Source: Phormidium tenue FACHB-886
GTDB lineage: Bacteria > Cyanobacteriota > Cyanobacteriia > Elainellales > Elainellaceae
DNA: 34,716 nt
Direction: 5' to 3'
Assembly: GCF_014764505.1 (NCBI RefSeq)
Contig: NZ_JACXWX010000050.1
Coordinates: 1-34,716, forward strand
Below are positions 7,018 through 30,382 of this stretch, piece after piece. How positions within the stretch are numbered: position 1 is the stretch's first letter; the number at the start of each line of letters is the position of its first letter. The translations under genes and the position numbers were made by a program. The notes below the pieces were generated by a model, which made no database searches, was not told the origin of the DNA, and saw nothing but the letters and a program-made list of their open reading frames with translations.

Positions 7018-7281
7018 CTATTCTTCATCCGAATCCCCAGCATCGAAATTCGAGATATGGTGGGCAATAGCGTGATTACGTCGATCGAAATTTTGTCTCC
7101 AGTCAACAAGCGAGAACCCGGACTCACTGCATATCAGCGTAAGCGGCTGCAACTCCATAATGCGGGGGTTCATTTGCTGGAACTGGATTTACTGCGCGGG
7201 GAACCTGCCCATTTCATCATCCCCGGCTACCAGACGTTCCTTATCTCATATGCTGACGCGATCGTAATCAAATTTGGTTGA
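7018..7281 (+). pseudogene. DUF4058 protein remnant
   Basis: The frame contains IPSIEIRDMVGNSVITSIEI and LSPVNKREPGLTAYQRKRLQ, then NAGVHLLELDLLRGEP, the conserved core of cyanobacterial DUF4058 proteins. These are normally about 200-270 residues. Here the frame is closed by TAG at 7015-7017 and the N-terminal half is missing. The end (ISYADAIVIKFG) deviates from the family. ATG 7057 has no ribosome binding site. It is best read as an internal fragment of a dead gene. Confidence 0.75.
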
Positions 7282-7341
7282 GGTTTAGCCGATCGCCCTT
7301 CAGGATCAATTGCCGGTTCTTCCGATTCCCCAACAGGGTTA

Positions 7342-7371
7342 CTGACAAATTTTAGTTGAGATCGCTATAAT
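7342..7371 (+). promoter_or_regulatory. Candidate promoter for the T-box/ileS transcript
   Basis: CTGACA at 7342-7347 and a perfect TATAAT at 7366-7371 are separated by 18 bases. Transcription would begin near 7378-7380, about 20 bases before the T-box stem I begins. The match to a group 1 sigma factor promoter is good, but this is sequence inference only. Confidence 0.5.
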
Positions 7372-7621
7372 TGCCTCAAATTACATATTTCACTAAAGGC
7401 AATGAAGGGAACGAGTAGTTGCTGCGACGGTGCCGAGCGAGCCAGGGACGGTGTGAGCCTGGTCATACGACAGTAATGAAAATCCTCCCTGAGCCGCCCT
7501 CCGAAACAGGCTTCAACCTGTAGTAGACAGGGACGTGTTCTGCACGTTACAGCAGATCGCTCTTCCCGTTTGGGAGTAGCGTTTAAGGCTGAAGTCTCCA
7601 GACTTCGGCGAAATTGGGTGG

Positions 7622-7728
7622 TACCGCGCATACCTCAGCGCCCCAAGGTAGAGGGCAGACTTGGCAGTGATCAAGTCTGTTTGTCAATCCAGTGGCTTCG
7701 ACTTGGATAGCACTTTTGAGGCGCGGTA
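7622..7728 (+). promoter_or_regulatory. Predicted Shine-Dalgarno sequestrator of the T-box
   Basis: TACCGCGC (7622-7629) is exactly complementary to GCGCGGTA (7721-7728), and CTCA (7634-7637) to TGAG (7717-7720). The 12 pairs have a four-base bulge (ATAC). The downstream strand includes GAGG (7718-7721), the ribosome binding site of ileS. This helix uses the same UACC and GCGC bases as the tRNA-stabilised helix, so the two folds exclude each other. That points to control of translation rather than, or as well as, termination. Confidence 0.7.
7656..7679 (+). terminator. Hairpin between T-box core and ileS
   Basis: CAGACTTG and CAAGTCTG form a perfect 8-bp stem with an 8-base loop, followed by TTTGTC. 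The U tract is poor and the stem does not overlap the antiterminator strand, so it may simply fill the loop of the sequestrator. A weak attenuator is the alternative. Confidence 0.3.
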
Positions 7729-7731
7729 ACT

Positions 7732-10700
7732 ATGTTTAAACCCGTTGAAAAATCCCCCAATTTTCCTGCCTTAGAGCAGGCTGTGATTGACTTTTGGAAG
7801 GAGCACCACATTTTCCAGAAGTCCATTGCAAAAGAGGCTCCCCAGGGCAATTTTGTATTTTACGAAGGACCGCCAACCGCCAACGGTAAACCGGGAGTGC
7901 ATCATGTCATTTCCCGCGCCTACAAAGACTTGTTTCTGCGCTACAAGACCATGCAAGGCTATCGAGTCGAGCGCAAAGGCGGCTGGGATACCCACGGGCT
8001 ACCTGTGGAGCTAGAGGTGGAAAAGCGGCTGGGGTTTACCAAAAAGTCTGACATTGAAGCTTTTGGCATTGCCCGGTTTAACCAGCTCTGCAAGCAATCT
8101 GTGTTTGAGCGCATCCAGGACTGGAATGTCATGACCGAGCGCATTGGCTACTGGCTAGACCTGGAAAACGCTTATATCACCTATGAAAACCGGTACATCG
8201 AGTCTTGCTGGTGGCTGATGAAGTCACTATGGGAGCGAGATTTGCTGTTTGAAGACTACCGATCGACCTGGCATTGTCCCCGCAACAACACCAGCCTGTC
8301 TGACCATGAGGTCGCCCAGGGATACCGAGAAGCAGAAGATCCCTCGGTCTATCCAAAGTTTCCGCTTCATGCTGAGGAGTTGGTACAGCGAGGATTGCTG
8401 ACAGGTAGCGATCGCCCGGTCTACCTACTAGCCTGGACAACCACACCCTGGACACTCGCAGCAAATGTGGCGATCGCCATCAAACCCGACGCTCAGTACG
8501 GGCTCTTTGAAGCCCCAGCGCAGCACGGTAATTCTGAGACAACCGATCTCTACATCCTGGCGGAAGACCTGGCAGAGAGCACCTTTGGTTCTGGACAGTA
8601 CCAAACTCTTCAGACCTTTGCGGGAGACGTTTTAGTGGGTCTGCGTTATGACCCGATCTTGCAGGGGCGAGTGCCTGAAGGCGAAAATCTCAGCCGAGCC
8701 TTTCGGATCGTGGCTGACGAGCAGGTCATGATCAATGAAGGCACCGGGGTATTACACATCGCCCCAGCCTACGGCGATCTAGAGGTTGGACGAAAGCAGG
8801 GGCTACCGATGCTGTTTTCGGTGGATCTGTTGGGGCAGGTTTATCCAGAGGTTAAGCTGCCGGATGCCCCCGCAGGTGATGGTCCTTACACGGGCAAATT
8901 CTTTAAAGATGCCGATCGTGCGATCGCTCAGGATTTGCTGGCGGCCAACCGACTCTACCGGGCGACTACTTACACCCACACCTACCCTTTCAACTATCGC
9001 GACAACACGCCGCTGATCAACTACGCCAAAAAGAGCTGGTATATCCGCACGACTGCTATCAAAGACAAACTGCTGGAAAACAACCACAAGATCAATTGGC
9101 ACCCGCAGTACATCCGGGATGGTCGCTTTGGTGACTGGTTACGGAACAACGTAGACTGGGCGTTATCACGTGAACGGTACTGGGGTGCGCCTTTGCCCAT
9201 TTGGGTGAGTGAGGACGAGAGTGAGCAGGTATGCATCGGCAGCGTTCGCGAGTTAGAGGAACTGACCGGACAAGACTTCTCCCAACTGGATCTGCATCGA
9301 CCCTACATTGATGAAATCACCTTTGAGAAGAATGGCAAGCGCTTCCGTCGGGTGCCCTACACAGTCGATGTTTGGTTTGAGTCGGGAGCAATGCCCTATG
9401 CTCAGGGACACTACCCCTTTGAACACCCAGAGCAGTTGAGCCAGAACTTTCCGGCTGACTACATCTGCGAAGCGATCGATCAGACACGCGGCTGGTTTTA
9501 TAGCCTGCATGCTCTAGCTAGCCTGCTGACCCACACCGGTGATGGTCTCCGTCCGGGAGCATTGGCAGACATCGCCCAAGACTCCCCCGCTTTCAAAAAC
9601 GTGATTGTGCTGGGGCACATTGTCGATGAGAAAGGCGAGAAGATGTCGAAGTCCAAGGGCAATGCCGTCGATCCGTGGACTGTCCTCGATGCCCAAGGAG
9701 CCGATGCTCTGCGCTGGTATCTTTACAGCGCCAGTCCACCAGAAACCACGAAACGCTTTTCTCAATCGCTCGTCGAAGATACAATCCAGGACTTTTTGCT
9801 CACGCTATGGAACACCTACAGCTTCTTTGTGCTCTATGCCAATTTAGACCGTCCCAATCTGCGGCAGTCGGTTCCTGTGGAGGAACGTCCTGACATCGAT
9901 CGCTGGTTAGTAGCTAAGCTTCATGAATTGATCAAGGCGGTGACTGAGCGGCTAGACGACTATGACCCCACCAGCGCCAGCCGCTTGATCCGCGATTTTG
10001 TGGTGAACCATCTTTCCAATTGGTATGTGCGCCGTAACCGCCGCCGCTTCTGGAAATCTGACAATGATCTTGATAAACTGTCGGCTTATCGTTCGCTCTA
10101 CGAAGCACTGGTTGCGATCGCTAAGCTGATGTCCCCGATGGCTCCTTTTCTCGGTGAACACCTGTATCAAAATCTGGTGCTGAGTGTGTTTCCAGAAGAG
10201 CCAGAGTCGGTGCATCTAGCCCCGTGGCCCACGGTAGAATCGTCCCTAATTGATGCCGGTTTACTGAGCGATATGACCACCCTGATCCGGTTAGTGGAAT
10301 TGGGACGTGCAGCACGTGCAGAAGCCGGAGTCAAGGTGCGTCAACCTCTGGCAGAACTGTTGGTGCGATTGCACAGCGAAAGGGAGCAGGCTGGGGTACA
10401 ACGTCTGGAGGATCAGCTCAAGGAGGAACTCAACGTCAAACAGGTCACTTATCTGGATCTGACCGCAGACTTTGTCGACTACACCGTTAAGCCCAATCTG
10501 CCCCTGCTAGGCAAACGTCTGGGTAAGCGCCTGCCAGCTCTCCAGCAAATCCTAGCGACGATGGACAGCCGCGAGATCGTTCACAATATCCGGCAAAACC
10601 AGCCCACGGTTCTAGAGCTGGCGGGAGAATCTTGCTCCCTGGAACCGGAAGCCTTTTTGATTGAGGCTAAAAGCCCAGCAGGTTATGTGGCGATCGAGGA

Positions 10701-11395: not shown

Positions 11396-12031
11396 TCAGC
11401 TAATCAAATGCTGTTGTGCCCAAAGAACTGCTTGTATGCGATCGCGGAGATTAAGCTGGCTCAAGATCCGAGTGACATAGTTTCTGACGGTTCCGTCGCT
11501 TAGATGCAGAATTTCAGCAATTTCTTGATTATTTTTGCCTTGACCAATCAGTTTTAGTACCTCCCACTCGCGTTTACTCAACTGAGAGGAGTCAATAACC
11601 TCACCTGGAGGTTTGGCACTCACCTGACTGAAAACCTTAGCAGCAACCGTTGGGCTTAGCTGGCTGTAACCTAGATACGCCGAACGAATGGTAGCAACTA
11701 TTTGATCCGCCGGAGTTCGCTTTAGCAAATACCCAATCGCCCCTGCCTGAAGGGATTGCCAAATATATTCATCATCATCAAAGGTTGTAAGTACCACAAT
11801 CTGAATCCACGGATATTGCTGGTGAATCTCTTGAGTTGCCAACACACCATCATAAACTGGCATCCGTACATCCATTAAAATAACATCAGGCTGTAATTCT
11901 GCGGTAAGGGCGATCGCTTCTTGCCCATTGCAGGCTTCTCCTACCACCTCTATATCCTCCCGTACCGAAAGCAGAGTAGCCAAGCCTTGTCGAAAAATAT
12001 CTTGGTCATCCACTAGTAAAACTCGAATCAT
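11396..12031 (-). CDS. NarL/FixJ-type response regulator
   Basis: 211 residues. The N-terminal receiver domain has the acidic pair DD (8-9), phosphoacceptor D54 (VILMDVRMP) and the conserved K in LLKRTP. The C-terminal LuxR-type helix-turn-helix is at about 149-209 (LSKREWEVLKLIGQGKNNQE, then LSDGTVRNYVTRILSQL). It is a DNA-binding transcription factor activated by its partner kinase. Its ATG overlaps the kinase stop by four bases (ATGA), so the two are translationally coupled. Target genes are unknown; the neighbouring remnant and CPBP gene are candidates only by position. Confidence 0.93.
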   Translation of the reverse strand: MIRVLLVDDQDIFRQGLATLLSVREDIEVVGEACNGQEAIALTAELQPDVILMDVRMPVYDGVLATQEIHQQYPWIQIVVLTTFDDDEYIWQSLQAGAIGYLLKRTPADQIVATIRSAYLGYSQLSPTVAAKVFSQVSAKPPGEVIDSSQLSKREWEVLKLIGQGKNNQEIAEILHLSDGTVRNYVTRILSQLNLRDRIQAVLWAQQHLIS

Positions 12032-13191
12032 GGCAGTTGAAACGAATAAGGAATGACGATCTGCACTTGCGTACCTTGATTGGGCTGACTGTAAATTCTG
12101 AATTGTCCGTTGAGTGACTGGACTCGTTCTTCAATGCCCTTCAAACCAAAACCCGATCGTACCATTTGAAGATCAAGCCCTCGACCATTATCAGCAATTT
12201 CTAGAATAATTTCTTCAGATATTACTTGCCCTCGAACCCAGACTTTCGAGGCTTGAGCATGTTTTTGGACATTCATAAGTCCTTCTTTCACAATGCAGTA
12301 GAGATGATGGCTCATTGATGTGGGAATATACGGCAGATTCATCTCCCAGTAAACCTGTAAAGATTGATTCTGCTTGATGTGTTCAATCAATGAGTTGAGA
12401 GTTTGGCTGAGGTTGAAATTAGATTGCCGTATCGAAGAAAGGGATTGGCTGACATCTTCAATACATTGATCGGTTAACCGTTTTGCCACATCGATCGATC
12501 GGAATGCTTGATCTAGATCGTGTTGTCGAAACTCCTGTGCTACAGCTAGCTGAACCTGGAGATTCGTAAGAGTGTGCCCTAGTGAATCATGAATGTCACG
12601 AGCAATGCGTGTGCGTTCAAGTGTAACTCCTAAGTTCTCGACTTCCTGGGCTAATGCTTCTGCCCGTCGTCGGCTTCGCTGCTCCGCAATCACCATTGAA
12701 CTAAATAAAATCGCAAATGTATTACCTGCTAGGTAATTTCCTAAGTAATTAACGGTAAATTTTTGGATCTCACTAGAATTATTCATAAACTGGCAAGAGA
12801 AGCCTTGGAGAATTTTTGGCAACGCATTGATATAAATAGGAGTGCTGATCAGCGCCGTTATAATTACAGCCGCTATAACACTTTTACGATCTAGCAAGAA
12901 GCAGCTTTTGGCAATATAAAGATATAGAAATACATTAAAATCGATGCCGAGCGAATAAGCAATCAGAACCAAAGAAAGACCTAAGATGATATATCCTCTT
13001 CGTTGCCAGAGAGGACGATGGATTGGAAGAACTAAACTCAAAAAAGCGAAGGCAGCCAGAAAAATGATCCCAAGCCAAACGTTGGCATCGCCATTCATTG
13101 CACTGTTGAACGCAATAATTGCGACTAATGCCCACTCTACATAGCGCAGGAGGCGAGAAATCGCCGGAGATAAATCAATATCAGAATTCAT
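12028..13191 (-). CDS. DesK/NarX-like sensor histidine kinase
   Basis: 387 residues. Several membrane helices occupy residues 18-170 with no large external domain, so it probably senses within or near the membrane. The HisKA_3 dimerisation segment has IARDIHDSLGHTL with phosphorylated H201. The HATPase part has the N box KEGLMNVQKHA and the G1 box IADNGRGLD, with FGLKGIEERV following. This is the DesK/NarX class that pairs with NarL-type regulators, consistent with the overlapping partner downstream. The ATG is preceded by no clear ribosome binding site. Confidence 0.92.
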   Translation of the reverse strand: MNSDIDLSPAISRLLRYVEWALVAIIAFNSAMNGDANVWLGIIFLAAFAFLSLVLPIHRPLWQRRGYIILGLSLVLIAYSLGIDFNVFLYLYIAKSCFLLDRKSVIAAVIITALISTPIYINALPKILQGFSCQFMNNSSEIQKFTVNYLGNYLAGNTFAILFSSMVIAEQRSRRRAEALAQEVENLGVTLERTRIARDIHDSLGHTLTNLQVQLAVAQEFRQHDLDQAFRSIDVAKRLTDQCIEDVSQSLSSIRQSNFNLSQTLNSLIEHIKQNQSLQVYWEMNLPYIPTSMSHHLYCIVKEGLMNVQKHAQASKVWVRGQVISEEIILEIADNGRGLDLQMVRSGFGLKGIEERVQSLNGQFRIYSQPNQGTQVQIVIPYSFQLP

Positions 13192-14736: not shown

Positions 14737-15756
14737 TTACTTCAGAAGGACCGCCCAAGCATCACGCCCTTGTTGTTTTGCTTGGTACAGTGCAGCGTCC
14801 GCATCTGCAATTAAATCCTGAGGGGAAGAAATTAACGTAGGAATCAAGCAGGCGATCCCTAAACTGAGGGTAATATGTTCAGCAATAGCTGAAGTCGCAT
14901 GAGGAATCTGTAAACATTCAAGTGTTTTCTGAATTGTCTCGACGATCGTTATCGCCCCTTCCTGATCAGTGTTAGGTAGAATGATGGCAAACTCTTCTCC
15001 TCCATAACGAGTAATTTTATCGGCAGGACGATTAATACATCTAGAAATGGCTTGGGCTACCTGCTGTAAACAAGCATCGCCTGCTGGATGCCCATAGCGA
15101 TCGTTGTACTGTTTAAAGTAGTCGATGTCACACAGGATCAACGATAGGGGCTGTTGCTCACGTTTGAGCCGTTGCCATTCTTGCTCAAGCGTTTCGTTAA
15201 AACAACGACGGTTGGCAATTTGAGTGAGGCTGTCTGTATTTGCAATTCGTCGCAGTTCCAGATTTGCCTGTTGAAGAGCAGCTTCTATCTGCTGGAGCTG
15301 CTCATTTTGGGCAGCAAGCTGCTGCTGTTGCCGCAAGATTGTAATTTGATGACGAACCCGTGCCAACACTTCTTCGGCTTGAAAGGGTTTGGTTACATAG
15401 TCTGCTCCGCCCATAGCAAATGCCTGCACCTTGTCGTCTGTATCATTTGAGGCGCTCAAGAAAACAATTGGAATGTTGCTGGTTTTTGGATTTGCTTTGA
15501 GTCGTTCACAGACTTCGTAGCCATTCATTTCTGGCATCCGAATATCTAGAAGTACGAGGTCAGGATGAGCAACCCGGATCGTTTCCAGCGCCATTTCGCC
15601 GCTAGTAGCTTTCCGAACCAGATATCCTGAGTTACTCAACAGCAAAGCAAGCGATCGCACGTTCTCGAAATGGTCATCCACAATTAAAAGACTGGCAGGG
15701 TTGACATTAACCCGGTCTGTATCAGGCTCCCGCATTTCCTCTTTAAGCATTGTCAT
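14737..15756 (-). CDS. REC-GGDEF response regulator, diguanylate cyclase
   Basis: 339 residues. The receiver domain (21-140) has DD at 27-28, phosphoacceptor D71 (LVLLDIRMP) and K123 in VTKPF. A Gln-rich coiled coil (140-170) links it to a GGDEF domain with the active-site sequence GGEEF (252-256). R243-P-A-D246, exactly five residues before GGEEF, is an intact RxxD inhibitory site, so product feedback by c-di-GMP is expected. It should make c-di-GMP when phosphorylated. The start overlaps the end of the giant kinase by 14 bases (ATG 15756; ATG 15750 is also possible), so the kinase is its likely partner. Confidence 0.95.
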   Translation of the reverse strand: MTMLKEEMREPDTDRVNVNPASLLIVDDHFENVRSLALLLSNSGYLVRKATSGEMALETIRVAHPDLVLLDIRMPEMNGYEVCERLKANPKTSNIPIVFLSASNDTDDKVQAFAMGGADYVTKPFQAEEVLARVRHQITILRQQQQLAAQNEQLQQIEAALQQANLELRRIANTDSLTQIANRRCFNETLEQEWQRLKREQQPLSLILCDIDYFKQYNDRYGHPAGDACLQQVAQAISRCINRPADKITRYGGEEFAIILPNTDQEGAITIVETIQKTLECLQIPHATSAIAEHITLSLGIACLIPTLISSPQDLIADADAALYQAKQQGRDAWAVLLK

Positions 15757-18700
15757 TCACAGCCCCTGATGTTGTTAGACTAATAATCTGTTTAAAGTTG
15801 TAGTTTTGCAGCAGTTGGCGCAATCCCTTAATTAAGAATGCCTCTTCCGCCGGAATCTGCTCAATCAGACCTTCCACCGCGGTGTCATCGCAGAGATAGG
15901 CGGCTTGACGGAGTGTAGCAATCCAGTTGGGCGGCATGATCAACAGATCAGAAGGATGTAGTGTAATCGAAGAATCCAACGACTTCCCATCCAATGAAGT
16001 GACTTGATTCTTTGCATAACTATACTGCAACCCCAAATACTTCGCTATTTTGCTAAATAACACCTCTTCCTGAAATGGCTTGCTGAGATAGTCATTGCAG
16101 CCTGAAGCGATGGCTAACGTGCGATCGCCTCTAGATGCTTGAGCCGTAAGCGCTATGATGATTGGCGTTTGCCCATTAGGAGTAGCGCGAATTTGCTGAG
16201 TCGCCTCGTATCCGTTTAACAGAGGCAGCCGTATATCCATGCAGATCAGATGCGGTTGCCATTGTTGCCATTGGGTGACTGCTTCCGGTCCATCAGCAGC
16301 TTCTCGTACTTTTAGCCCAATTTGAGTCAATAATTTGACCAGTAGCTTGCGGTTTTCTGGCTGGTCATCTACTACAAGGACGCGGTAAGCGGGTTGATTT
16401 GGGGTTACTCCAATGACTTGAAACTTGGAGGAAGTCATTGCAGCATCAGCCGATTTCATCAAGTGAACTGGAACAGTGAAGGCGAAGGTGCTGCCCTGCC
16501 CTAATGAACTTTGAACTGTAATCTCACCACCCATTATTTGCACAAACTTACGACTGATGGTTAATCCTAAACCAGTACCATCGGGAGAAATTTTTCCAGC
16601 TTGAGTCTGCACAAATGCCTTGAAAATTGTTTCTAACTCAGCTGAGTGAATCCCTATTCCGGTATCTTTAACCTCAAACCGGATGCAGGACAGATTGAAA
16701 GTAAGAGGCTGATCGTTCTCTACTTGCTGTACCTGTAAAACTACTTCTCCCTGTTTGGTGAACTTGATGGCATTGCCCAGTAGATTGATCAGCACCTGCC
16801 GCAGTTTGTTGGCATCGGTCGTCACATATTGGGGCAGGTTTGGGGCGAGTTCAAGACGGAGCTGCAGTCTTTTGACAGCTGCACGTTCGCGGAACATTTG
16901 CTCTAGCGATCGCAATAAGTCAAGCAAGTCAACCTTGCTTTCTTCAAGAGTGATATGTCCAGATTCGATCTTGGACAAATCTAAAACATCGTTGATTAGA
17001 CTCAACAAGTGATCGCCACTGCGACGGATAATTTGCAGATTCTCTCGCTGCTCAGGGGTGAGCCGTTCATCACGGTACATCACTTGAGCGAAGCCCAAAA
17101 TTACATTGAGTGGAGTCCGCAACTCATGACTCATGTTCGCCAAAAAGATACTCTTGGCTTTGTTAGCGGCTTCTGCAGCTTCTTTTGCCTGTTGCAAATC
17201 ATGTTCAATTTGTTTGAGGTCGGTGATATCGGTAGTCGCTCCTACAATTCCAGTGACTTGTCCTTCTACGTTAATCAAAGGGTTGATTATGGTTTGATAC
17301 CAGCGAGTTACACCTATCGCAGTCACAATTATTTGCGAAAGGTCTGTATGAGGTTGTCGAGTTTGCATCACCTGCTGGTTAATAGACAAAAACTCTTTGA
17401 GTTGTTCTACTGAAAAGTTGGGATTAAAGTCAATTTCTCGCTTGCCCAACATTGCTTCCACGGTTGTTCCATGGGCAGATGCCCCTGCCTGATTCACAAT
17501 TAAGAAGCGTCCCCCTTTATCCTTAGCAAAGATAATGTTAGGAACTGAGTCAATTACCTGTCGCAGGAAGGCTTGCTGAGACTTTTGTTCAACTTCTGCC
17601 AGTTTGCGATCGGTAATATCGGCAGCAATGCCATAGACGTAGAGCGGTTGACCTATCTGATCGTGAATGGCTGTTCCAATTGAGAGCGTCCATCTTACCG
17701 TTTCATCAGGTCGAACAATCCGAAATTCAGCGTAAAACTCGCCTGCTTCTCTGATCGCCCGGTCAAACTCTGCCTGCACCCAGTCTCGATCCTCCAGGTG
17801 GACCTGAGTTTTCCATTCCTCGTAGGTTTTGTGAGTTTGTCCTGGCTCCAGTCCATAGATTTCACTAATATCGCTTTCAGACAGTTCGCCTGTAGCAACG
17901 TTATATTCCCAGGTGCCAAATTTTGCTGCTTTCAATGCTAAACGTAAGCGTTCTTCACTTTGGCACAACAATCCCTCAGCTCGTTCCCGTTCTCGCAATG
18001 CAACCTGTCGAGCGCTAATATCACTAAAGGTGCAAATCACCTGCTGAACGTTACCATTTTCATCAAGCCAAGGTTCTGCATCGACTAATAGCCAGACGCG
18101 ATCGTTATGCTGAGGACGATAAACGCCCATAATTACACTGCGAACAGAGCCACCCGTCGTGATTACCTGCAGAACCGGATCAGACTCGCTGGGAAACGGA
18201 GAGCCATCTTCGTGGATTACATTCCAGTCTGGATCAAAAGATGCTTTGCCCATAAATTGTGCTTCTGTAAGACCCAGCAGCTCTAAAGCTTTGGAATTGC
18301 TTAGCAAAACTTCAGCTTTTGCTCCCTGCACTACTACACCAACCTGTAGATCTTCAAGCAGCGTCCTGAAACGAGTTTCACTGTCCCGCAAGGCTTGCTC
18401 CATCTGCTTGCGATCGGTAATGTCGCGCACCATCACTAGCACTTCATTCGCTTGCAGTGCCACAACGCGAGCTTCTTCATAGTAAGGTTGACCATCTACG
18501 GTTAATAGGTATTCATGAAGCTGCACTTCACCTGTTCGCAATGCCTGGTTGGCGCAGTGCAATCGCTCATCAGCTACATTGGGTGGCAAAACATCAGTAA
18601 CCCTACTGCCTGCAAATGCAGTGTCGGCTTCAACAAAGTGAGCACAGCCCTGATTAATCAGTTCTAATTGAGTACCATCATCCCTCATACGAATCAGTAG

Positions 18701-21061
18701 ATCTGGGATTGCCTGAATCATGGCACGTTTTGTATTTTCGCTTTCTTTGAGAGCAACTTCGATACGCTTTCGTTCACCAATATCTTTGTGGGTTCCCATG
18801 ACTCGTAGTGGCTCTCCATCCCGCTTGCGGCTCATCACCATGCCGCAAGCGAGAACCCATTTATAGGAGCCGTCCTTGCACAAGACTCGATGTTCACTCA
18901 CGTACTGAGAGACTTTACCCGAAAAATGCTTTTCAAGGGCAGCATATACCTCGGCTCTATCGTCAGGATGAATTCGTTTGTTCCATTCACTCCAATCATT
19001 GCCGATCTCGGCTTCATTGAAGCCGAGCATGATTTTCCACTGTCGCGAGAAGAATACTTCGTTGGTTTGGGTATTCCAGTCCCAAAGCCCGTCGCCGTTT
19101 CCTTCTATTGCATATCTCCAGCGTTCTTCACTCTCTCTCAATTCTGCTTCCGAGGCTTTACGCTCGGTAATATCTTTATGAGTGCCAATCATTCGCAGCG
19201 GCTTTCCTTGCTGATCCCAGGTAACGACTTTACCGTAATCTGCAATCCACTTCCACTCGCCAGATTTGGTTTGCATTCGGTATTCGCAGGCAAACTGAAC
19301 CAGCTGATTCTGTAGATGACCATTCAGCAGATCAAATACTCTAGATTTATCGTCTGGATGAATTGACTCTTCCCACGACTTAATGTTCTCTGGTAGTTCT
19401 GCATCCCCATAGTCTAAAATCTCTAGGTATCGGCGGCTTCGATATACGTTTCCAGTATCTATCTGCCAATCCCACAGCCCTTCATCTGATGCTTCTAAAG
19501 CAAGCTGTAGTTGCTCTTGACTCAGCCGTAGCTCTTCTTCAACCTGTTTACGAGCGCTAATATCTCTGGCGGCAGCGTAGATATAATTTCCATTAGGAAC
19601 CGATCGCCACTCTAGCCAACGGTAGGAACCATCCTGATGGCGATAGCGATTCACAAATCCTAGAAGCGGCTGTTTAGTTGCCTGAATGCTGGCAGCGAGA
19701 GTTGTTTGCAGATCATCTGGATGAACAAAATCAAGAAAATATTTGCCCTCTAATTCTTGTAGCCTGTAACCCAGCGTTCGCTCCCATTCTGGATTAAGCC
19801 GGAGAGAATAGCCTCTTGTGTCGGCAATGCAGAGTAGATCGATTGCGCTGGAGAAAAATCCCTCCAGCTCTTCGGTTTTCTGTTGTAAGGCAGCTTCAAT
19901 TTGTTTAAGCGTTGTAATGTCATTCATGACACCCAGTACGTATCGCTTCTGCGCATCTGATGACAGTACGGGTTTTTTGGTTGATTGAAAGTAACGAATT
20001 GTTCCGCTTGCAGTGGTGAAAGTCTCTTCTAAATTCAGAAGAGGCTGTAGAGTTCGCATTACCTGGCGATCGGCTTGTGCATACTGATCGATATCGCTTG
20101 GGTTGGAGCAAAAATCAGCATCCATTTTGCCAATAATATCTTCAGGTGTGGTGTTATAAAGCTTGGCTAACGCTTGATTGGCTAAAGTAAACCTGCCCTC
20201 CCAGTCCTTCACAAATATCAGGTTTGGGTTGCTGTCAATCACCTGTCGTAGAAATTGTTGCTGGGCTTGAAGCTCTGCCTCAGCTTGCTTGCGATCGGTG
20301 ATGTCCCGCAGGAATACTGTAAAAATTTTCTCGCCTGCCGCTTCTAGCTTAAAAATCAAAGCTTCTGCTGGAAACTCAGTGCCATCTTTACGACGACCAA
20401 GGATTTCACTGCGCTCCCTTCTGTGCCGGGTATTCCCATTTTGTTCGTTAACGCTGCTGGCATGCTGATGGTGCAAGGCTGCAAACCGCTGTGGCAGCAG
20501 CAGCTCAGCCGATTGCCCCAAGACCTCCTCTGCTGTATAGCCAAACGCCTTCTCGGCTGCCTGGTTAAATAGGGTAATGCATTGATTTGCATCAATCGAA
20601 ATAATCGCATCATTGGTAATATCTAGAATGCCTGCAAATCGAGTTTGAGAAATCTGTAGCGCTTCGTTTAGTCGCTGTAATTCAGCAGGGTTTGGAATTG
20701 CTAAAACTTGTGGAATCAGGGGCAGAAGTTTGAGCGCAGTAAAGATCGAAATTAGCGCCGTGATTGCCCTCATGCTGCAAGAGAGCCAGTAGATCGGATA
20801 CCAGAGCGCCCAGATTTCTAGAAGGTGAAGCGTTCCATAGGAAATGATAAACGCTCCAGACAGCAGAAATATCCACTTGAACGACAGGTCTTTGCGCTGG
20901 CAAACGAAATAGAGCAAAGCAATTGAGATGGAGTAGTAAGCAAGGGCAATCAGAGCATCAGCCGTAATATGGAGCCCAACCAGTCCTGGTTTCCAGAGGT
21001 AACAATGCTCGTGAGGAACGAACAGTCTAGGGCTGGAAATAGCTTTGAGAGCGTCTAGCAT
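15743..21061 (-). CDS. Giant hybrid histidine kinase with ethylene-receptor-like membrane domain and nine PAS domains
   Basis: 1772 residues. The N-terminus (about 25-120) has three membrane helices like the ethylene-binding domain of ETR1: ITADALIALAYYSI keeps the Asp (D35) and GAFIISYGTLHLLEIW keeps the His (H79). The copper-ligand Cys of ETR1 (C65) is Tyr here (Y75, codon TAT at 20837-20839). Nine PAS units follow, counted by nine endings of the DIT/DIS/DIG-x-x-K type. Next come HisKA with H1312 (FLANMSHELRTPLN), HATPase with LLGNAIKFT, DTGIGI and GTGLGL, and a C-terminal receiver with phosphoacceptor D1609 (LICMDIRLP). An 80-residue tail has no recognised domain. It should pass phosphate within itself and to the overlapping REC-GGDEF protein. 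The ligand is unknown; several PAS units (GLWDW types) often bind small molecules. Confidence 0.93.
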   Translation of the reverse strand: MLDALKAISSPRLFVPHEHCYLWKPGLVGLHITADALIALAYYSISIALLYFVCQRKDLSFKWIFLLSGAFIISYGTLHLLEIWALWYPIYWLSCSMRAITALISIFTALKLLPLIPQVLAIPNPAELQRLNEALQISQTRFAGILDITNDAIISIDANQCITLFNQAAEKAFGYTAEEVLGQSAELLLPQRFAALHHQHASSVNEQNGNTRHRRERSEILGRRKDGTEFPAEALIFKLEAAGEKIFTVFLRDITDRKQAEAELQAQQQFLRQVIDSNPNLIFVKDWEGRFTLANQALAKLYNTTPEDIIGKMDADFCSNPSDIDQYAQADRQVMRTLQPLLNLEETFTTASGTIRYFQSTKKPVLSSDAQKRYVLGVMNDITTLKQIEAALQQKTEELEGFFSSAIDLLCIADTRGYSLRLNPEWERTLGYRLQELEGKYFLDFVHPDDLQTTLAASIQATKQPLLGFVNRYRHQDGSYRWLEWRSVPNGNYIYAAARDISARKQVEEELRLSQEQLQLALEASDEGLWDWQIDTGNVYRSRRYLEILDYGDAELPENIKSWEESIHPDDKSRVFDLLNGHLQNQLVQFACEYRMQTKSGEWKWIADYGKVVTWDQQGKPLRMIGTHKDITERKASEAELRESEERWRYAIEGNGDGLWDWNTQTNEVFFSRQWKIMLGFNEAEIGNDWSEWNKRIHPDDRAEVYAALEKHFSGKVSQYVSEHRVLCKDGSYKWVLACGMVMSRKRDGEPLRVMGTHKDIGERKRIEVALKESENTKRAMIQAIPDLLIRMRDDGTQLELINQGCAHFVEADTAFAGSRVTDVLPPNVADERLHCANQALRTGEVQLHEYLLTVDGQPYYEEARVVALQANEVLVMVRDITDRKQMEQALRDSETRFRTLLEDLQVGVVVQGAKAEVLLSNSKALELLGLTEAQFMGKASFDPDWNVIHEDGSPFPSESDPVLQVITTGGSVRSVIMGVYRPQHNDRVWLLVDAEPWLDENGNVQQVICTFSDISARQVALRERERAEGLLCQSEERLRLALKAAKFGTWEYNVATGELSESDISEIYGLEPGQTHKTYEEWKTQVHLEDRDWVQAEFDRAIREAGEFYAEFRIVRPDETVRWTLSIGTAIHDQIGQPLYVYGIAADITDRKLAEVEQKSQQAFLRQVIDSVPNIIFAKDKGGRFLIVNQAGASAHGTTVEAMLGKREIDFNPNFSVEQLKEFLSINQQVMQTRQPHTDLSQIIVTAIGVTRWYQTIINPLINVEGQVTGIVGATTDITDLKQIEHDLQQAKEAAEAANKAKSIFLANMSHELRTPLNVILGFAQVMYRDERLTPEQRENLQIIRRSGDHLLSLINDVLDLSKIESGHITLEESKVDLLDLLRSLEQMFRERAAVKRLQLRLELAPNLPQYVTTDANKLRQVLINLLGNAIKFTKQGEVVLQVQQVENDQPLTFNLSCIRFEVKDTGIGIHSAELETIFKAFVQTQAGKISPDGTGLGLTISRKFVQIMGGEITVQSSLGQGSTFAFTVPVHLMKSADAAMTSSKFQVIGVTPNQPAYRVLVVDDQPENRKLLVKLLTQIGLKVREAADGPEAVTQWQQWQPHLICMDIRLPLLNGYEATQQIRATPNGQTPIIIALTAQASRGDRTLAIASGCNDYLSKPFQEEVLFSKIAKYLGLQYSYAKNQVTSLDGKSLDSSITLHPSDLLIMPPNWIATLRQAAYLCDDTAVEGLIEQIPAEEAFLIKGLRQLLQNYNFKQIISLTTSGAVNDNA

Positions 21062-21673: not shown

Positions 21674-23035
21674 TTACTCTTCATATTCCTCATCGCTGTA
21701 TTCTTCTTCGTTGTCATATTCCTCATCGCTGCATTCCTCATCGCTGCATTCCTCATCGCTGTATTCTTCTTCGTTGTCATATTCCTCATCGCTGCATTCC
21801 TCATCGCTGTATTCTTCAACGCATTCTTCTTCGTCAATACATTCTTCTTCTACTTCCTCATTGCTATATTCTTCATTTTCCTCATTGCTGTATTCTTCTT
21901 TCTCTTCTGCACTTGCTTTAGGATCTATGCAATAGTCATAGTCTTCATCAATCGCATATTCTTCGCAGAGCGCATCTAACTCCCCAAGGAACTCAGTCGG
22001 ATCATCGATCGTTAAATCAAAGTTGGTAATATGAACGATATAGCCATCCCCATTCTCCTCTTCTTCGTAGTCGAAGTAATAGTCCTCTTCAGTTTCAATG
22101 TAGCCTTGACACAGTGTATCGAGGTCGCCAACAAATCCTTCTGGATCGCTCGTGCAAACATAAAAATCATACAGGAGTAGCGATCCTTCGTCTGCAAAAA
22201 CAGAGTCTCCTTCTTCCCAAACGTCGACACTGAAATCGAGATCGTTAACAGCTTTGATAATCCACGAGTCATGACCGTTATAGTCTGGATGTATCACGTA
22301 ATCATAAGGAATATAGCAATAGCCTCTATCACCCCAGGCTGTGCCCCAAGAATTTCGCACAACGAACATTCGATCTTTGTCAGAATAGCCAACACACAGC
22401 ATGGCATGCCATCCATGCGTTTCACGAACGTTATCTGATCGCTTTGGCATGGAAACGCGACCCCGATTACTAGTGGCATCATCAAATGATTCGAAAGTAT
22501 TCAGCGCAAATGCGATTGGGTATCCCTCTGCTAAGGTGTGCCGCCATAAGTCCAAATCCGTTTCAATACATTCTGCCTCTGTAATTTTGAAGTTTGCCGC
22601 ATGTTCATAAGCATTTGCATCTGGCTCTTCACAAATTAGCAATTCATCATTTGCCCAGATATCTTCACAGCAAGCACCGTGCTCAATTAGGCTATCAATC
22701 GCACAATACATCTGTGAACCACCATCTTCGTGTTCACAACCTTCCCGTGCCCGTGCGTTGTAGTAGACAAACAGACGGCTGACATTACCCGATTCGCCAA
22801 GTTCACGTTTGGCAAGATATTCATATGCGCCAACAAACGCATTGGCAACACAGCTCTTGCCAACTTGCTCTTCAACTTCACTCATATGCTTACGCAGATC
22901 AACCTTGTGAGGTAATTCATCCCCACGAAACCGTGCTTTCTGATGATATTTCGTATCTTCTGGCTTCTGACCAGGACGGTAGCCCCCGATGCGGTATTTC
23001 CGATTTTGCAGGTTCTGCAACACACTCAACACCAT
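21674..23035 (-). CDS. Papain-like (C1A) cysteine protease with acidic repeat tail
   Basis: 453 residues, no signal peptide. The catalytic domain is residues 44-262: oxyanion Q57 and nucleophile C62 in EEQVGKSCVANAF, H210 in ETHGWHAMLCVGY and N228 in VVRNSWGTAWGDRGY, giving a complete Cys-His-Asn set. VSRLFVYYNAR is typical of the bacterial C1A group. Residues 289-370 contain two related units, FYVCTSDPEGFVGDLDTLCQ and FDLTIDDPTEFLGELDALCE. The last ~70 residues are very acidic. The end is built of five-residue SDEEC/SDEEY/EYDNE steps, and the DNA is a near-exact tandem repeat. The protein is rich in Cys. AAGGAG precedes the ATG. Target and role are unknown; the acidic tail may bind Ca2+ or basic partners. 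Confidence 0.88.
   Translation of the reverse strand: MVLSVLQNLQNRKYRIGGYRPGQKPEDTKYHQKARFRGDELPHKVDLRKHMSEVEEQVGKSCVANAFVGAYEYLAKRELGESGNVSRLFVYYNARAREGCEHEDGGSQMYCAIDSLIEHGACCEDIWANDELLICEEPDANAYEHAANFKITEAECIETDLDLWRHTLAEGYPIAFALNTFESFDDATSNRGRVSMPKRSDNVRETHGWHAMLCVGYSDKDRMFVVRNSWGTAWGDRGYCYIPYDYVIHPDYNGHDSWIIKAVNDLDFSVDVWEEGDSVFADEGSLLLYDFYVCTSDPEGFVGDLDTLCQGYIETEEDYYFDYEEEENGDGYIVHITNFDLTIDDPTEFLGELDALCEEYAIDEDYDYCIDPKASAEEKEEYSNEENEEYSNEEVEEECIDEEECVEEYSDEECSDEEYDNEEEYSDEECSDEECSDEEYDNEEEYSDEEYEE
21677..21817 (-). repeat. Tandem repeat encoding the acidic protease tail
   Basis: A 15-bp unit (AGCGATGAGGAATGC or its TAT variant) recurs, organised in two longer near-identical blocks that each end in the codons for EYDNEEEY. 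This is in-frame coding repeat, prone to length change by slippage. Confidence 0.8.
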
Positions 23036-29920: not shown

Positions 29921-30382
29921 TTAGGCGGAAGCGCCCATATCGCGGACAATACTCCGCATGAAGTTGATACGCTCCTCAAAGTCCACCTGCTTAATCAGGT
30001 TGGTAAACTCTTCTGTTTGAGAAGGCAGCTTATAGTCAGAAGGAACTTGGATAACTTCGCCTTGCTCCATCCCCTTTCCAAGCAACAGCCAAAGCTCAAT
30101 ACGAGCGCTAGGATCAAACGCTGCATACTCACGGCTGAATTCAGATTCTTTAGACTTCTCAAGAATGTCCCGCTGTGCTTGCAGTTGTTCCTGCTGAGGC
30201 AGTGATTTAATGCGATGATAGACTGCCGTTGCCAAGTTATCGGATTCGTAGGGAGGTCCAGGATTCAGGTTGTCTTTGATATCTAGATAGCCAAACCACA
30301 GCAGCGCAAGCTTAGTATCTGTGTCATAGCTATTGAATTTGTCGATCGCTTGCTTGGTGGTATCACTGGTAGCGTATGTCAT
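29921..30382 (-). CDS. Helical carotenoid protein (OCP N-terminal domain homologue)
   Basis: 153 residues, the size of a stand-alone OCP N-terminal domain. LALLWFGYLDIKD (25-37) aligns with the OCP segment carrying W41 and Y44 (here W29, Y32). IELWLLLGKGMEQGEVIQVP aligns with the segment around OCP W110 (here W98), and the end FEERINFMRSIVRDMG matches the last helices. These residues line the carotenoid tunnel. HCPs bind a ketocarotenoid and quench singlet oxygen, and some quench phycobilisomes; which paralogue group this is cannot be set by eye. No C-terminal-domain homologue (CTDH) lies next to it. AAGGA is 6 bases before the ATG. Confidence 0.92.
   Translation of the reverse strand: MTYATSDTTKQAIDKFNSYDTDTKLALLWFGYLDIKDNLNPGPPYESDNLATAVYHRIKSLPQQEQLQAQRDILEKSKESEFSREYAAFDPSARIELWLLLGKGMEQGEVIQVPSDYKLPSQTEEFTNLIKQVDFEERINFMRSIVRDMGASA

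Follow-up and report, generated by a model that had tools for sequence, protein, structure and literature searches.

A predicted tRNA-Ile T-box leader precedes a second isoleucyl-tRNA synthetase gene in a cyanobacterial genome

The present study identified a T-box leader in front of an isoleucyl-tRNA synthetase gene in Phormidium tenue FACHB-886. The window, i.e., the whole stretch of DNA analyzed, is one entire contig of 34,716 bases. Judged from its sequence, the leader is a genuine T-box in a cyanobacterial genome, and the gene behind it encodes a type 2 enzyme (IleRS2) with a GXHH motif in a genome that also encodes an IleRS1. We consider it probable that this tRNA-Ile T-box controls the translation of IleRS2, that the enzyme serves as a resistant spare responsive to tRNA charging, and that the leader and gene came from a Trueperaceae-like lineage.

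The Rfam T-box model RF00230 matched positions 7393-7648 of the plus strand over its full length (model positions 1-219) with 103 bits, above the gathering cut-off of 93, and an E-value of 6.8e-22 (cmscan). No other Rfam match in the window exceeded its cut-off, and no second RF00230 match turned up when 150 of 166 candidates were scored across the draft genome, which comprises 8.93 Mb in 255 contigs. The preliminary description had proposed a complete T-box before ileS, with an AGUA motif, a distal Stem I hairpin, an AUC specifier, a core with a UGGU bulge, and an antiterminator-type helix. The significant match to the covariance model agrees with this proposal, and all of these parts are present in order before the ileS start at 7732. 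The element begins at 7393 and not at 7400, the start of the proposed extent (7400-7731). The helix itself was also found, at 7614-7646; however, antisequestrator is a better name for it because a simple consensus scan of 7200-7800 did not detect any terminator-like site. The features are as follows.

7342-7371, plus strand: sigma-70-like promoter CTGACA-18-TATAAT, 11 of 12 consensus matches; weak alone, with 0.7 sites expected in the region
7393-7648, plus strand: T-box leader, whole RF00230 match, 103 bits, with covariation in cyanobacterial and Trueperaceae leaders
7399-7494, plus strand: Stem I, full length, with AGUA and distal hairpin (RF00230 alignment; pairs counted)
7414-7417, plus strand: AGUA motif, within Stem I
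7441-7463, plus strand: distal Stem I hairpin (RF00230 alignment)
7482-7484, plus strand: specifier codon AUC (Ile), invariant among the aligned leaders
7497-7532, plus strand: Stem II with the internal loop GAA / AGUAGA, which we take to be S-turn-like; pairing in 12 leaders
7533-7556, plus strand: Stem IIA and IIB pseudoknot; pairing and double changes across leaders
7588-7609, plus strand: Stem III; double changes in seven cyanobacterial leaders
7614-7646, plus strand: antisequestrator, with helices A1 and A2 flanking the UGGUACC bulge; all cells paired in seven cyanobacterial leaders
7616-7628, plus strand: T-box core GGGTGGTACCGCG, with UGGU at 7619-7622
7721-7728, plus strand: GCGCGGTA, proposed 3' arm of the sequestrator, pairing with 7622-7629 and ending three bases before the start codon
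7732-11085, plus strand: ileS2, type 2 isoleucyl-tRNA synthetase of 1117 residues with the motif G55-V-H-H58; TIGR00392 892 bits (cut-off 621)

Two further details of the layout were noted. A hairpin at 7558-7582 (arms CTCTTCCC and GGGAGTAG) lies between Stem II and Stem III; it is an insert relative to the Rfam model and is recognizable in all seven cyanobacterial leaders described below. In addition, CCUC in the antisequestrator loop (7633-7636) and GAGG downstream (7651-7654) are complementary and invariant in the same seven leaders, and may represent a further pairing. When positions 7393-7650 were folded alone, the z-score was -1.39 and the fold was unlike a T-box; therefore, this fold was not counted as evidence.

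Evidence for the structure comes from a comparison of leaders. Seven cyanobacterial leaders were aligned, namely, those of the window, another genus of its family (G007), Fischerella muscicola PCC 7414, Rhizonema, a Scytonema MAG, and two genomes of the same class found with a tailored model (G543 and G611). Of the 392 cells of the 56-pair T-box structure, 97.2% were paired, and both sides had changed in 14 pairs. Shuffles of this alignment gave 92.6% and 4.7 double-changed pairs, none of the 500 being as good as the real alignment, and slid versions of the structure gave at most 46.5% and 0 to 2 double-changed pairs. A second alignment joined five of the cyanobacterial leaders (G543 and G611 were left out) with seven from Trueperaceae. 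In these 12 leaders, 86.8% of 665 cells were paired, with 34 double-changed pairs versus 22.3 in shuffles and 9 to 16 in slid versions, the latter being paired in at most 45.7% of cells. The weakest helices were the middle of Stem I (66.7%), inner Stem II (72.9%), Stem III (75%), and the base of Stem I (75%). The outer helix of Stem II was paired in 100% of cells, with two of four pairs changed on both sides. The IIB pseudoknot was paired in 100% of lettered cells, 7 of the 12 rows being gapped at two of its four pairs; within the seven cyanobacterial leaders, two of the four were changed on both sides, as in UCUG/CAGA in the window and CCCG/CGGG in Fischerella. Stem III of these seven had five of nine pairs changed on both sides and 92.1% of cells paired, and the antisequestrator was fully paired and nearly invariant. 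Thus, compensatory changes, which the preliminary description had named as a check, occur between related leaders in both alignments, and those within cyanobacteria indicate selection on the T-box structure.

The specifier predicts which tRNA is sensed. The AUC at 7482-7484, claimed as the specifier from the outset, is invariant in 14 leaders (7 cyanobacterial and 7 from Trueperaceae), and the base preceding it is A, G, T, or C among 12 leaders. It marks the leader as specific for tRNA-Ile, as judged by codon identity. In three genomes (G008, G611, and G543), the discriminator base of the tRNA-Ile(GAU) gene is A; followed by CCA, it gives a 3' end that complements the UGGU bulge. A pattern search found tRNA-Ile(GAU) in 4 of 10 genomes, including the single-contig cyanobacterial genomes G008 and G041, and missed it in the window genome (G000), G007, three named cyanobacteria, and one Trueperaceae genome. 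In the draft genome of the window, it was found neither by this pattern nor by a tRNA search that scored 150 of 327 candidates and gave 42 matches. Its absence from drafts is probably due to assembly gaps at the rRNA operons.

The gene behind the leader was originally described simply as ileS. It encodes an isoleucyl-tRNA synthetase; however, it is not of the IleRS1 type, an identity that was rejected because a full-length IleRS1 is encoded on another contig (C190). Along almost its full length, the product matched the resistance models MupA (775 bits) and MupB (761 bits), both under the cut-off of 1900, and it is 37% identical to plasmid mupA. The MupA match over approximately 1050 residues (17-1063) and an identity of only 29% to the IleRS1 on C190 assign the product to IleRS type 2, the group nearer to MupA and eukaryote-like IleRS than to bacterial IleRS1. 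Its class I signature is GVHH (residues 55-58) versus HMGH in that IleRS1. Excerpts of PMC10485003 describe GXHH IleRS2 enzymes as hyper-resistant to mupirocin, with a Ki in the millimolar range, and state that the IleRS2 of D. radiodurans naturally has GXHH. Based on this motif, the IleRS2 of the window should tolerate mupirocin. The same excerpts mention the co-occurrence of IleRS1 and IleRS2 in a small group of Bacillaceae, which makes a standing pair unusual. All seven carrier genomes hold a full-length IleRS1, those of the six others being 70-78% identical to that of the window genome. In the two Trueperaceae genomes searched (one a draft), the best match to IleRS1 was the IleRS2 itself, and no separate IleRS1 was seen. 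Therefore, a T-box that serves seemingly the only IleRS in Trueperaceae serves a spare in cyanobacteria.

The combination of T-box and ileS2 is rare in cyanobacteria. Among 386 genomes of the phylum, RF00230 with strict filters and 5 candidates scored per genome detected one carrier, the window genome; a search of 40 relatives added the G007 leader, and 2 of 36 genomes of the order are carriers. The tailored model (R1), with 4 candidates scored per genome, found the leader in 4 of 388 genomes of the class: the window genome and G007, both of which had contributed to the model, and two new carriers, G543 and G611. Among the 80 loci listed from contigs of named genomes, the best relatives of IleRS2 were three cyanobacteria (71-77% identity), followed by Trueperaceae of the Deinococcota (56-65%) and by Dehalococcoidia and a Chloroflexi MAG (47-48%). 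A Firmicutes origin of the gene is thus unsupported, since the nearest non-cyanobacterial kin in this list are Trueperaceae. Plasmid carriage was also rejected: all IleRS2 matches in a plasmid collection were below 60% identity, and the leader had no match there.

In a maximum-likelihood tree of 23 rows (the G007 row combines two reading frames, and the incomplete Rhizonema and G611 genes were left out), the five cyanobacterial rows grouped in a single clade (100/100). Seven Trueperaceae formed its sister group (100/98), and the two groups together had 100/100. Two loci from another class of the phylum, L009 (G073) and L010 (G084), carry another IleRS2, 37-41% identical, and L009 is located in a different part of the tree. 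The T-box core was present upstream of ileS in all seven Trueperaceae loci with upstream DNA (the eighth, L078, has none) and absent upstream of ileS in all three Chloroflexota loci. One of the seven Trueperaceae leaders scored above the RF00230 cut-off, five scored below it (E 7.5e-6 to 0.06), and one (L069) was unmatched. Judging from these relations, the leader and gene seem to have a common origin with those of a Deinococcus-like lineage. The sister relation leaves the direction of transfer unfixed; based on the rarity of the pair and its second-copy state, we infer a transfer into cyanobacteria.

Over the lengths compared, the cyanobacterial loci do not share flanking genes. When 8 window ORFs were compared with 9 loci having limited flanks, the only matches were one to a GGDEF protein in G007 and one to a regulator-kinase pair close to the window genome's own decayed copy; the Fischerella, Scytonema, Rhizonema, G543, and G611 loci gave none. 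Elsewhere in the window, 15743-21061 encodes a hybrid histidine kinase of 1772 residues whose N-terminal domain resembles that of ethylene receptors (ETR1_N) and which also has several PAS domains and a receiver; it adjoins a GGDEF response regulator. Furthermore, 21674-23035 encodes a protein with a papain-family cysteine protease domain. A group II intron match (RF02001, 88 bits) was noted near the G611 T-box and ileS2 (L189 3120-3308).

The genome has an estimated contamination of 3.54%, the window makes up a contig of its own, and the non-cyanobacterial kin of the gene belong to the Deinococcota; these points would fit a contig from a non-cyanobacterium. However, the window contains 16 HIP1 sites versus 0.66 expected, with 5 inside ileS and none in the leader. 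It also encodes, at 29921-30382, a protein with an orange carotenoid protein N-terminal domain, and this domain is a cyanobacterial hallmark. Furthermore, the T-box and ileS2 occur in six further genomes, three from named cyanobacteria, including the strain F. muscicola PCC 7414, and three from the family or class of the window genome, and a decayed copy is located on another contig of the same genome. Contamination was rejected on the grounds of HIP1, the orange carotenoid protein domain, and the six further carriers, and its probability is negligible. The original argument that HIP1 excludes Firmicutes DNA holds against contamination but does not speak against a foreign origin; HIP1 is best read as a sign of residence and not of origin. 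The decayed copy, G000:C183:40145-40392 (L191 1501-1748), was found with the tailored model; RF00230 did not report it, even at E 0.1. In this copy, most of the Stem I and Stem II region remains highly identical. Four bases are missing at the AGUA motif, as is everything between a point slightly upstream of the T-box core and a point slightly upstream of the start codon, and an ileS2 stub containing an in-frame TAG follows. Approximately 3.2 kb beyond it, a kinase-regulator pair (L194 9592-10916) is 30% and 44% identical to the pair that closely follows ileS2 in the window (11396-13191), and it may be what remains of a duplicated segment. The ileS2 gene is not intact as assembled in three of the seven carriers (a frame change in G007, an internal gap in Rhizonema, and a cut by N in G611), and these breaks may be assembly faults. 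Together with the decayed copy, they indicate that the gene may be dispensable, and they suggest a spare that is useful only at times. A leader that is itself a decaying relic without function would explain the loss of the whole T-box discriminator in one copy and the broken genes. Nevertheless, we regard this as highly improbable because the window copy keeps all the elements tested and an open gene of 1117 codons, and compensatory changes point to selection within cyanobacteria.

The output of the leader was assessed from the region between the antisequestrator and the start codon. Pairing is possible between the T-box arm UACCGCGC (7622-7629) and GCGCGGUA (7721-7728); both the minimum-energy fold of 7610-7761 and the RNAalifold consensus of five leaders include it. 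Among the 85 positions separating the antisequestrator from the start codon, 12 are invariant in the seven cyanobacterial leaders, and the longest invariant run before the start, GCGGU, is complementary to the T-box arm in all seven. The 7-pair sequestrator helix was paired in 95.9% of 49 cells versus 14-55% when slid. Its duplex energy beat shuffles in each of the seven (0.019, 0.032, 0.001, 0.009, 0.030, 0.0055, and 0.004), where the shuffles keep base composition only, the 30-base region was picked after the match had been noticed, and the leaders are related. No pair of these arms was changed on both sides in the seven leaders, and alignment shuffling is uninformative there. The same duplex test was below 0.05 in one of the seven Trueperaceae leaders (0.026, 0.052, 0.10, 0.16, 0.33, 0.65, and 0.82), and the Trueperaceae locus L066 has a terminator-like hairpin by eye. 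The complementarity to GCGGU and the lack of a terminator-like site at 7200-7800 make translational control more likely than antitermination. The same T-box might instead act by transcription attenuation or Rho-linked premature termination without hiding the start: annotated T-boxes mostly act on transcription and generally have a full-length Stem I there (excerpt of PMC7583486), and the fold of 7610-7761 contains a hairpin at 7655-7680 downstream of the antisequestrator. However, this hairpin neither overlaps the antisequestrator nor has a T run, and the longest block invariant in all seven leaders is the one that complements the T-box arm. The same excerpt lists a few translational T-boxes with a long Stem I. 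We consider either transcriptional route unlikely.

With translational control as the preferred output, we propose the following mechanism. As long as tRNA-Ile is largely charged, the segment just before AUG would be paired with the T-box strand, keeping ileS2 off. If IleRS1 were inhibited, for example by a mupirocin-like antibiotic, or if isoleucine were short, uncharged tRNA-Ile would build up; it would bind the AUC specifier through its anticodon and UGGU through its free ACCA end. This would let the antisequestrator form and open the start site. The IleRS2 produced, with its GXHH motif, should tolerate mupirocin and would restore charging. In this scenario, the leader and gene probably arrived together from a Trueperaceae-like lineage of the Deinococcota, and the spare role arose in cyanobacteria. 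Alternatively, IleRS2 may be an ordinary second synthetase induced by starvation and not a resistance device, as is thought for T-box-controlled second synthetase copies in Bacillus. By its design, a T-box reacts whenever charging is lost, from whatever cause; the scan of 20 window ORFs recognized no antibiotic gene cluster; and the Trueperaceae T-box precedes what seems to be the only IleRS in two genomes, all of which fit starvation. On the other hand, the known link of GXHH to mupirocin hyper-resistance (excerpt of PMC10485003) speaks for a resistance role, and the sparse distribution with no shared flanking genes is what an acquired accessory trait would show. Overall, we regard this reading as less likely than not, although it is a serious alternative.

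A bolder form of the proposed resistance role is that a Deinococcota-like donor gave cyanobacteria a complete sense-and-replace cassette, in which the T-box reads the inhibition of IleRS1 and opens a GXHH IleRS2 hyper-resistant to mupirocin. We offer it tentatively, at slightly less than an even chance. If it is true, what was a housekeeping feedback switch now works as a resistance switch inducible by an antibiotic, with its RNA logic unchanged, because the enzyme sensed and the enzyme produced are no longer the same. The present results extend a well-studied RNA switch into cyanobacteria and may provide a clear example of a riboswitch that was transferred between phyla along with its gene. 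They also lead to a general and testable idea: a T-box before a resistant spare synthetase would sense when the sensitive one fails, irrespective of the drug involved.

The leader resembles known RF00230 T-boxes in its full-length match and in having Stem I with AGUA, the specifier, Stem II/IIA/B, Stem III, the UGGU core, and the antiterminator-type helix, and differs in its cyanobacterial host. An excerpt of a 2008 survey reports T-boxes in none of 13 cyanobacterial genomes and an ileS T-box in D. radiodurans (PMC2494555). A limited literature search did not turn up any published account of a T-box in cyanobacteria, and these leaders may already be entered in TBDB or among the Rfam members. 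The translational ileS T-boxes of Actinobacteria also precede ileS and have a start-hiding hairpin in place of a terminator (excerpts of PMC1262725 and PMC7583486). However, their Stem I is mostly shortened, with few long ones (excerpt of PMC7583486), whereas that of the window is full length, and the window gene is a second copy. The Trueperaceae T-boxes share the T-box core and structure and precede the nearest relatives of the gene; in contrast, no separate IleRS1 was seen there in two genomes, and the start-site pairing passed in one of seven leaders. MupA and related IleRS2 resistance synthetases are similar along most of the protein (MupA model, 775 bits); the window IleRS2 differs in scoring under the cut-off of 1900, in its GXHH motif, and in the T-box in front, a leader that is unmatched in the plasmid collection. 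The T-box family is already known; what is unusual is the host phylum, the history shared with the gene, and the place before a GXHH spare synthetase.
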